From NCBI GenBank assembly GCA_947505255.1, contig CANNKP010000011.1:1-35663 (forward strand): a stretch of DNA of 35,663 bases. The letters run 5' to 3'. The notes under the pieces were generated by a model that was not told where the DNA came from, did no database searches, and saw nothing but the letters and a program-made list of their open reading frames with translations. Below are positions 1,161 through 3,951 of this stretch, in pieces. The position numbers and the translations under genes are program-made. The stretch comes from Flavobacteriales bacterium. GTDB taxonomy: Bacteria > Bacteroidota > Bacteroidia > Flavobacteriales_D > Crocinitomicaceae. Numbering within the stretch: the first letter of the stretch is position 1; every line of letters starts with the position of its first letter.

Positions 1161-2150
1161 TCAACGAAATCGAGACATGTAACTTGTATCAGTCAAAGTA
1201 AAAAGAAATAATTTAAGTTGATTAATTTGATTAGAAGATAAATTAAACTTTTGAATTATTCCATTTTTATTAATATGATTCTTTCCACCAGATTGATAAT
1301 GTTGAATTACATTCTCAATACTTTTTATACTTCCGTCATGCATATATGGAAATGTCAATTCTACATTCCTTAAAGAAGGAACTTTGAATTTACCAATATC
1401 ATTTGAATCATTGAATATTCTGAAACGACCAAGATCTGCGCCATAATCCAAGTGTAATCCATTGTTTTCAGGTAAATAAGTTGTGAAATTAGGTGCTGGA
1501 TGACATTTTGTACAATATAAATCTTCAGAAAACAACTTCCACCCCGCTCTTTCATCTTTAGACATTGCTTTTTTATTTCCTGCAATATATTGATCGAAAC
1601 GCGAGTTCTGTGAGATTAATGACCGTTCAAAAGCAGCAATACTTCTTGTTAATACATATGCATCGAAATCACGGTTATAGATACGTTTTGCAGATTCTTG
1701 GTATTCACTGACGTTTCTTAGTTTTTTTAAGAGATCAAGCATTTTCATGTTCATTTCAACATGCTCTTGAATAGGAACGATAACTTGTAACTCCAATGTC
1801 TTTATATAAGCATCGTACATTACAGTAGGTAAATAACCCGCATTCAGAATCGACGGTGCATTTCTTTGTGTTTTGTTCCCATTTACGCCATCACTAAAAG
1901 TTTTCTGATCTGAGAAAGCAAATTTTGGCAAATGGCACGAGGAACATGAAACAGTTTCATCAGATGACAAACGTTTGTCAAAAAACAATTTTCTACCTAA
2001 TTCAATTTTGTCCTCAGTCGTCGGGTTTCCTGAAGGTGCAACGACCTCTCCCATAGGTTTTATTGACTGAATGTTAGTTTTACATTGGAATAAAAAAAGG
2101 GACAAAGAAATTGCCCCTAATAATAGTAAATATGCTTTGTAAAGTCTCAT
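1161..2150 (-). CDS. Di-heme cytochrome c peroxidase family protein (MbnH/MauG/CCP-like), probable lipoprotein
   Basis: Two CxxCH motifs (CSSCH, CTKCH); CCP-like FDKRLSSDETVSCSSCHLPKFAFSD, NAPSILN and VPSLRNVELTFPYMHDGS; N-terminal hydrophobic segment ending LFQCK. Confidence 0.92.
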   Translation of the reverse strand: MRLYKAYLLLLGAISLSLFLFQCKTNIQSIKPMGEVVAPSGNPTTEDKIELGRKLFFDKRLSSDETVSCSSCHLPKFAFSDQKTFSDGVNGNKTQRNAPSILNAGYLPTVMYDAYIKTLELQVIVPIQEHVEMNMKMLDLLKKLRNVSEYQESAKRIYNRDFDAYVLTRSIAAFERSLISQNSRFDQYIAGNKKAMSKDERAGWKLFSEDLYCTKCHPAPNFTTYLPENNGLHLDYGADLGRFRIFNDSNDIGKFKVPSLRNVELTFPYMHDGSIKSIENVIQHYQSGGKNHINKNGIIQKFNLSSNQINQLKLFLFTLTDTSYMSRFR

Positions 2151-3136
2151 TAAAATAAAACTTTGATTGAGTTTAGTTTGGTTAAATTTTCATCGTACAC
2201 TATAAACTGATAAATTCCTTCAGAAAAATTATCAAAAACAACATTTCCGACTTGATCTGAAATAGCTCCTGTTTTCACTTTTTTGCCAGAAACGTCAATC
2301 AATTCATAATGATTAATGTTTATTATGTTTTTCCATGAAATAGTTAATGTAGCGTTTTCTCTTGAAAAAGTTAAGGTTCCAATTTCATTTGAATTGCTTA
2401 AAAGAGAAGCATTCATACTTTGAGTAAACACGGGTCTTACCAAAACGTTATTCATGATTAATTGATTTTCATTTGTAGTACCATGAGAAATACCAACCGT
2501 CTCAATAGGTATATTTGTTAACCAAACATCCACATTGCAATTAACAAAAACATCAATTTTATTTATTGAACTCTGAGTTTGTATTACTGGCAATTGAAAA
2601 GGTAAATAGTTATTATCTCCAAGATTATGTAATTGAAAAATAGCATCAGCAATGCCGTCAGTGTTCGAATCGGCTTGTCCACCAATTATCATGTGTGTGT
2701 ATCCAGAAGTCCATCCCCAATGCATTGATGGGTCTTGGAAACTTAATGGATGCCCTAATGGATATGCAGAAATATCGAAAGCATCAACCCCATCTTGCGT
2801 GTTTAAATTTGGTGGAACACCTACCGCAAAGTTCATTTGCTCGATATTTGTTACATTTAAAAAACCTAAATACAAGACGTAATTATTTGGCTCAACTATA
2901 AAAACTGTGTCACTTAAATCTAAATCTTGACCACCATCATGAATAATATGTAAACCAGATAAATAGTAATCGAAATAGTCTAAATTAAAAACTATACCAT
3001 TAAGATTCATTAAATCCGCCCCTATAAGTAAATCGGTATTAGCAACCTTAGGCGATAATGTTATAAATACATTTTTTTGAGAGAAAGTTAACGTGGTTAA
3101 CAGTGCGAAAAATGGAATAATTATTATTTTAATCAC
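2150..3136 (-). CDS. MbnP-like copper-binding family protein with C-terminal T9SS type A sorting domain
   Basis: Signal peptide; MbnP-like core (FNLDYFDYYLSGLHIIHDGG, DPSMHWGWTSGYTHMIIGG); C-terminal HYELIDVSGKKVKTGAISDQVGNVVFDNFSEGIYQFIVYDENLTKLNSIKVLF; stop overlaps the di-heme peroxidase start. Confidence 0.8.
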   Translation of the reverse strand: MIKIIIIPFFALLTTLTFSQKNVFITLSPKVANTDLLIGADLMNLNGIVFNLDYFDYYLSGLHIIHDGGQDLDLSDTVFIVEPNNYVLYLGFLNVTNIEQMNFAVGVPPNLNTQDGVDAFDISAYPLGHPLSFQDPSMHWGWTSGYTHMIIGGQADSNTDGIADAIFQLHNLGDNNYLPFQLPVIQTQSSINKIDVFVNCNVDVWLTNIPIETVGISHGTTNENQLIMNNVLVRPVFTQSMNASLLSNSNEIGTLTFSRENATLTISWKNIININHYELIDVSGKKVKTGAISDQVGNVVFDNFSEGIYQFIVYDENLTKLNSIKVLF

Positions 3137-3141
3137 GATTC

Positions 3142-3915
3142 TTAATTTTTATGTACAATGTACAAAATTTCTTCTTTCTGTAATCTGAAACGTTCGATTT
3201 TTTTTTCGTCATACTTGGATTCCTTTTTAAATTCCGTAACAGTAAAACCAGCTTTCTCAAGCCATTTTGGGTAATCTAAACCAAATAGTCTGACATGATC
3301 TTTTTGCCAATAATACTTCTCTCTATCCGAAGGTGTGACGATGCTTTTGTCTTCTAATGTTTCCTCTCTTTTAAAGTCTTGAGGAACTTGCATAATCCCC
3401 CAACCTCCAGGTTTCATAACACGGTACAATTCACGCATACATTGTAATGCATCGTCAACATGTTCCATAACATGGTTACAAAAAACCACATCAAAACGGT
3501 CATTTTCCAGTGGGATATTATGCAAATCAAAATGCATGTCCGCAATTGGAGAAACTAAATCACCTGTTAAATAGTCTAAATTCTTTTGCGCTTTGAATCT
3601 CTTGTGAAAGCATTGTTCAGGTGCGATATGCAACACATTGAGTTTTTCTGCTGTAAAGAAATTGGATGAATCTTTCAAATATAACCACATCAATCGATGG
3701 CGTTCAAGTGTTAAGTCATACGGACACAGAACATTATCTCTATGAGCTATGTCAGAACCATAGGATAAAAATTTTGAAAATGATTTTTCACAAACAGAAC
3801 ATTCAACGTTATTACCTTTGTATAATAATGGAGCAATCAACTTAAAAGGATAGCTCAAACGAATTAATAAAGGTCGCGGTAATTTGTTTAATAAAAATTT
3901 GTAAATCTTCTTCAT
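3142..3915 (-). CDS. Class I SAM-dependent methyltransferase with N-terminal zinc-ribbon-like region
   Basis: Methyltransf_11-like VVFCNHVMEHVDDALQCMRELYRVMKPGGWGIMQVPQ; start placed at MKKIYKFLL rather than the ORF-track start at 3951. Confidence 0.85.
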   Translation of the reverse strand: MKKIYKFLLNKLPRPLLIRLSYPFKLIAPLLYKGNNVECSVCEKSFSKFLSYGSDIAHRDNVLCPYDLTLERHRLMWLYLKDSSNFFTAEKLNVLHIAPEQCFHKRFKAQKNLDYLTGDLVSPIADMHFDLHNIPLENDRFDVVFCNHVMEHVDDALQCMRELYRVMKPGGWGIMQVPQDFKREETLEDKSIVTPSDREKYYWQKDHVRLFGLDYPKWLEKAGFTVTEFKKESKYDEKKIERFRLQKEEILYIVHKN

Positions 3916-3921
3916 AAAGCA

Positions 3922-3951
3922 CAAATTTAATGAAAGAAAAAAGAATCTCAA
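3922..3951 (-). promoter_or_regulatory. Putative flavobacterial sigma-A promoter (TTG-N19-TAAATTTG) for the methyltransferase-MbnP-MbnH operon
   Basis: Minus strand reads TTG (3951-3949), 19-nt spacer, TAAATTTG (3929-3922), matching the Bacteroidetes -33/-7 consensus. Confidence 0.55.

Follow-up and report, generated by a model that had tools for sequence, protein, structure and literature searches.

A stretch of 35,663 nucleotides from a Flavobacteriales bacterium (contig CANNKP010000011.1 of assembly GCA_947505255.1), hereafter the window, carries two adjoining genes that we read as an MbnP–MbnH-type maturation pair, in which the type IX secretion system (T9SS) would carry the MbnP to the cell surface or beyond it, where it would work in copper capture or hand-over; we put the probability of this reading at about 0.6. 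Both genes, like all window features located below, lie on the minus strand. The upstream gene (positions 2150–3136, GTG start) encodes a 328-residue MbnP-family protein with a T9SS C-terminal domain (PF20243, E 3e-18), and the downstream gene (1161–2150, ATG start) encodes a 329-residue MbnH-type di-heme enzyme, identified by TIGR04039 (E 1e-74), AF2 modeling and Foldseek. The two open reading frames share one base, within TAATG. An earlier note, made from the sequence alone, had described this arrangement as a CCP-family protein with two CxxCH motifs beginning inside the stop of an MbnP-like gene, and both frames, their overlap and the PF03150 match of the downstream product bear it out.

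MbnP family, fold and candidate copper site

The window MbnP scores 66.7 bits against PF20243 (Pfam cut-off 27) and 28.8 bits against the TIGR04052 equivalog model (cut-off 140), and is therefore filed in PF20243 only. With its AF2 model (pLDDT 89.6) as query, the top six Foldseek matches were all chains of the MbnP structure 7l6g (E 4e-7 to 6e-6, probability 1.00), at about 14% identity and a modest TM score of 0.43–0.53 for a model that includes the signal peptide and the sorting domain. A PDB sequence search with profiles of MbnPs bearing the T9SS domain (tailed) and lacking it (untailed) did not reach 7l6g, which was reached by the fold search and through an Ideonella MbnP used as a bridge (E 1e-34); this bridge places both M-x-W-x-W and the HxGSTGC His in register with 7l6g. 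The profile search proposed in the earlier note thus returned the MbnP family, and the reading of the upstream product as MbnP-like stands on both the family match and the fold.

The candidate copper site was located in an alignment of 14 diverse MbnPs, extended to 7l6g via Ideonella. The motif MHWGWTSGY (2699–2725) supplies Met138, Trp140, which is the predicted kynurenine, and Trp142, and His170 (2627–2629) is the predicted copper ligand. These four are the only functional side chains that are invariant in the 14 proteins, which extend from Bacteroidota to Deinococcus and Ideonella; in addition, Trp140 and Trp142 are invariant in all tailed MbnPs aligned, and His170 is kept in 82/82 of the newly surveyed loci. 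The segment DPSMHWGWTSGY, in which the earlier note had placed the candidate Trp, ends at Tyr146 and contains Met138, Trp140 and Trp142, so that both the placement of the Trp and the presence of a conserved Trp/Met/His site held up. In MbnP as described by Manesis et al. in PNAS in 2021, Cu(I) reportedly lies near a His, a Met and solvent, together with a kynurenine derived from the first Trp of WxW. We take Met138, Trp140, Trp142 and His170 to be this published copper and kynurenine site, a match that draws on the alignment and on that published description; on this match, the window protein has every piece of the site. Conversion of Trp140 to kynurenine and binding of copper are both predicted for the window MbnP.

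By alignment and tree, the tailed MbnPs form a clade of their own with two extra, near-invariant His residues. In the window protein these are His66 (2939–2941) and His129 (2750–2752), each present in at least 90% of the tailed set; the untailed MbnPs compared have no His at position 129 and carry Lys, Arg, Asn or Ser at position 66. The MbnP tree splits tailed from untailed proteins at 99% SH-aLRT; a lone short, lipoprotein-like MbnP encoded elsewhere in the window genome (C93) joins the tailed proteins by a long branch.

Sorting domain and predicted export

The hydrophobic N-terminus of the MbnP is a predicted signal peptide (residues 1–19, 3080–3136), and Gln20, the predicted mature N-terminus at the cleavage site, is invariant in 50 aligned homologues. 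A T9SS type A sorting domain was assigned to about residues 254–328 (2153–2377), a region that forms a beta-strand domain in the AF2 model. Taken alone, the window protein scores 15.9 bits against TIGR04183, below the cut-off of 23; the model is matched by 42 of the 50 aligned homologues, and the profile of the tailed MbnP family finds structures of T9SS sorting domains, 8glk (E 5e-6) among them. The window genome also encodes PorU (1240 bits) and SprA (2430 bits). A Sec signal, a sorting domain recognised at the family level and a T9SS in the genome are thus all present, as in T9SS type A cargo, and they support the T9SS-dependent export put forward in the earlier note.

The di-heme enzyme

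The partner is a member of PF03150 (CCP_MauG, E 2e-50). Its best NCBIfam family is TIGR04039 (MbnH), with 251.6 bits, below the cut-off of 362.85, and it is therefore filed as MbnH-type rather than as a TIGR04039 member. MbnH 6e1c ranks first both in the PDB sequence search and in Foldseek with the AF2 model (pLDDT 92.5; TM 0.85, E 4e-23). The heme motifs CSSCH (residues 69–73, 1932–1946) and CTKCH (213–217, 1500–1514) are invariant in 43 aligned MbnHs, as is Tyr285 (1296–1298), which aligns with a Tyr of 6e1c and is the predicted axial ligand of MauG/MbnH type. In classical bacterial cytochrome c peroxidases, Met serves as the sixth ligand of the C-terminal heme. The window enzyme differs from them in having Tyr285 where they have this Met; the earlier note had named such a grouping, together with loss of synteny elsewhere, as what would count against the pair, and neither was found: the enzyme carries the MauG/MbnH Tyr, and the pair is syntenic in other genomes.

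Two other features of the enzyme depart from expectation. At the position of the inter-heme Trp of 6e1c and of the Geobacter peroxidase 3hq6, the window enzyme has Tyr112 (1815–1817), and it thus lacks a residue common to MbnH, MauG and bacterial peroxidases. With a cognate enzyme of this kind, the analogy to MauG/MbnH chemistry is weaker than the earlier note assumed. The same note took the enzyme for a lipoprotein, which is doubtful because a Gln stands before the N-terminal Cys. Of the 80 Cys-bearing proteins of its clade, 59 have Lys, Arg or Gln at this -1 position, against Ser, Ala or Gly in 11 of 12 Trp-type MbnHs with the FFWDGR motif.

Replacement of the inter-heme Trp beside tailed MbnPs

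By alignment and tree, the MbnHs beside tailed MbnPs form a separate clade in which the inter-heme Trp is replaced by Phe, Tyr, Arg, Leu or Ser. Among 78 MbnHs at tailed loci of the window's clade, the position is Phe in 70, Tyr in 6 and Trp in 2; the ten tailed loci that the phylum set contains (L188–L197) all have Arg there, and other tailed loci have Arg, Ser, Leu or Phe. The enzymes beside untailed MbnPs have Trp in 27/29 cases, and within the phylum set in 14/17 (counted by eye). A second, Trp-type MbnH stands in tandem at several tailed loci. At L077 and L083, only a Trp-type MbnH adjoins the tailed MbnP; both genomes encode a non-Trp MbnH elsewhere, which in G082 lies beside a second tailed MbnP. 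In a tree of 81 MbnHs, the 41 non-Trp enzymes from tailed loci make up one side of a fully SH-aLRT-supported branch; one of them carries the label 'short' because its MbnP is truncated where the contig ends. Since these enzymes share a single clade, tail and residue are to be regarded as linked by one long-kept evolutionary association, not by many independent ones.

Non-Trp MbnHs also occur alone. Eight fetched loci (L239–L246) carry such an enzyme with no adjoining MbnP, and six of these eight genomes (G027, G035, G037, G043, G054 and G089), hence at least six in all, encode no tailed MbnP anywhere; a strict dependence of the enzyme on a tailed MbnP as substrate is thus not seen. Three of the eight loci, in G035, G054 and G081, lie in the gene neighbourhood of the window pair and retain much of its gene order, in which a peptidase and/or porin-like gene and then a methyltransferase precede the MbnH and a sigma factor follows it. 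These solitary enzymes suggest either that the MbnP was lost or that they have another substrate.

Distribution and genomic context

Some MbnP was found in 142 of 149 relatives of the window genome. Of 297 near-complete genomes drawn from across Bacteroidota (the phylum set), 54 had an MbnP match and 12, the window genome included, had the tailed type (E < 1e-50; counted by eye). In 75 of 80 GTDB loci the tailed MbnP has an MbnH next to it, and in most cases the two genes abut or overlap.

Multicopper oxidases, with HTIHLHGLD or CueO-like sequences, occur beside tailed pairs in near and distant lineages, and of the 20 best multicopper oxidase homologues from the 149 relatives, 10 have a tailed pair no more than about 2 kb away (compared by eye). 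An obligate partnership was rejected, as the oxidase is present in 32 of the 149 relatives and none was found in the window genome (69% complete). HYC_CC_PP proteins lie near tailed pairs at L072 and L078 (over the cut-off) and L069 (just under it), small Cys-rich proteins resembling them by eye at L076, L077 and L082, and CusA- and CusB-like genes, also judged by eye, adjoin the MbnH of L237 in G036. Among the neighbours of the window pair scanned by profile, no adjoining copper gene was identified.

Directly upstream of mbnP, and probably on the same transcript, lies a SAM methyltransferase gene (3142–3951, PF08241), whose product has a Cys-rich N-terminus. The gene is found in 72/80 close loci and was not detected in the distant loci L066–L085; it is therefore probably not part of the system, and was set aside as a gene embedded in family-level synteny. 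The MbnB model had no match in the window genome, at its 69% completeness, and none over the cut-off in the 149 relatives, in agreement with the earlier note, which saw no methanobactin genes.

Several further loci were recorded. The window genome holds two more MbnP–MbnH pairs: that of C168 (L064), with a T9SS-tailed protein with a YHYH-like stretch and a small periplasmic-looking protein, and that of C93 (L065), with the lipoprotein-like MbnP, which lacks the copper His. At L070 and L071, two tandem tailed MbnPs follow a multicopper oxidase and share one MbnH, and in one of the L070 copies the copper His is replaced by Arg. At G108:C66 (4824–5423 and 6694–7722), about 1.3 kb separates a sub-threshold match to the MbnB model from a homologue of the multicopper oxidases that accompany tailed pairs. 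An Ideonella plasmid record (L235, 3830–5101) labels the gene that follows MbnP as the methanobactin exporter MbnM.

Relation to known systems

The MbnP–MbnH pair as such is not new. Its conservation far beyond methanobactin producers was described in 2013 (PMC3621798), and its presence in copper operons of other kinds followed in 2022 (PMC9426467), so the earlier note's view of an under-described system was right only in part. Among the matches listed in a full-text search of the open-access literature, no paper combined MbnP with T9SS, and the phrase 'MbnP family protein' was found in none. To the published pairs, our survey adds a tailed MbnP clade with extra His residues, a separate clade of non-Trp MbnHs, and multicopper oxidases and HYC_CC_PP proteins as neighbours.

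The closest characterised counterpart is the pair of Methylosinus trichosporium OB3b (7l6g and 6e1c), with which the window pair shares both folds, M-x-W-x-W and the His, the axial Tyr and the pairing of genes; unlike it, the window pair has a T9SS tail, two extra His residues and no methanobactin operon, and its enzyme lacks the inter-heme Trp. Methanotroph MopE/SACCP and CorA/CorB likewise combine a surface or secreted copper(I) protein containing kynurenine with a di-heme peroxidase-like partner (PMC3423442, PMC3912023), a combination that is predicted here; MopE and CorA differ in using two His plus kynurenine and in having no T9SS, and MbnP shows no marked sequence similarity to them (PMC3621798). 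The operons with DUF2946 and TBDT genes also contain MbnPH outside methanobactin loci. They are copper-homeostasis operons, and the passage describing them mentions no T9SS (PMC9426467), whereas the neighbours in relatives of the window pair are HYC_CC_PP proteins and multicopper oxidases.

For the enzyme, Burkholderia BthA offers a precedent within the di-heme MauG superfamily, as it has the axial Tyr and no inter-heme Trp; with Ser at that position it still forms bis-Fe(IV), while in MauG the Trp is reported to be necessary both to stabilise bis-Fe(IV) and to synthesise TTQ (PMC6405878). BthA belongs to another subfamily with another reported gene partner, and in sequence and fold searches it comes far behind MbnH.

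Proposed mechanism and alternatives

Starting from the families, folds and conserved site residues, the sorting domain and T9SS machinery, the synteny, and the copper-related neighbours of relatives, we hypothesize the following sequence, in which modification would precede export. The MbnP would enter the periplasm by its Sec signal, and the MbnH, which a hydrophobic segment at its N-terminus probably anchors to a membrane, would oxidise Trp140 to kynurenine via a peroxide-derived high-valent heme. The kynurenine would complete a copper site with Met138 and His170. The folded MbnP would then be exported by the T9SS through its C-terminal domain and would capture or hand over copper at the cell surface or outside the cell, with secreted multicopper oxidases alongside it in some relatives. 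This explanation is weakened by the replacement, in this clade, of the Trp reported as necessary in MauG, by the persistence of non-Trp MbnHs in at least six genomes lacking a tailed MbnP, and by the absence of an identified copper gene beside the window pair.

The first two of these points also bear on a different account, which we consider rather unlikely: that the MbnH of this clade mainly detoxifies peroxide or acts on other substrates, and that the surface copper MbnP needs no Trp oxidation or acquires it spontaneously. Loss of the inter-heme Trp and the solitary non-Trp enzymes of the six genomes would fit such a role, and mutant results for MEALZv2_1030035 of M. alcaliphilum suggest copper binding without the cognate cytochrome (PMC3912023). 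Against the account, the enzyme keeps the axial Tyr rather than the peroxidase Met, its adjacency to MbnP is near-universal across the phylum, and Trp140 and Trp142 are strictly retained in the tailed MbnPs aligned.

The tandem loci, in which MbnP is followed by a non-Trp and then a Trp-type MbnH in several families and other classes, raise the idea that the Trp-type (FFWDGR) enzyme oxidises the Trp while the non-Trp enzyme is an electron relay or regulator, the window MbnP being served in trans from C93. This seems improbable: in many genomes of the window's clade the non-Trp enzyme is the only one at the locus, and the C93 MbnH, which does group with the FFWDGR clade, has an adjoining MbnP of its own, albeit one without the copper His. 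That tailed MbnPs bind another metal or ligand, with WxW merely structural, is very improbable given the copper-linked neighbours at tailed loci and ligand residues identical by alignment to those of the characterised MbnP, even with His66 and His129 as near-invariant additions.

Returning to the maturation pair with T9SS export, we extend it only tentatively, at somewhat under even odds, to a phylum-wide Bacteroidota branch of MbnPH, in which an MbnH free of the inter-heme Trp would mature the MbnP in the periplasm and the folded protein would be exported by the T9SS to present a surface copper site with two extra His residues, in some lineages beside secreted multicopper oxidases. Kynurenine–copper chemistry would thereby extend to the outside of Bacteroidota cells. 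The branch would also provide a natural set of MauG-superfamily enzymes that lack the inter-heme Trp and come with a genetically paired substrate, making the need for this Trp in long-range protein oxidation directly testable, and it would be a case of a covalent modification that is completed before type IX export, or survives it.
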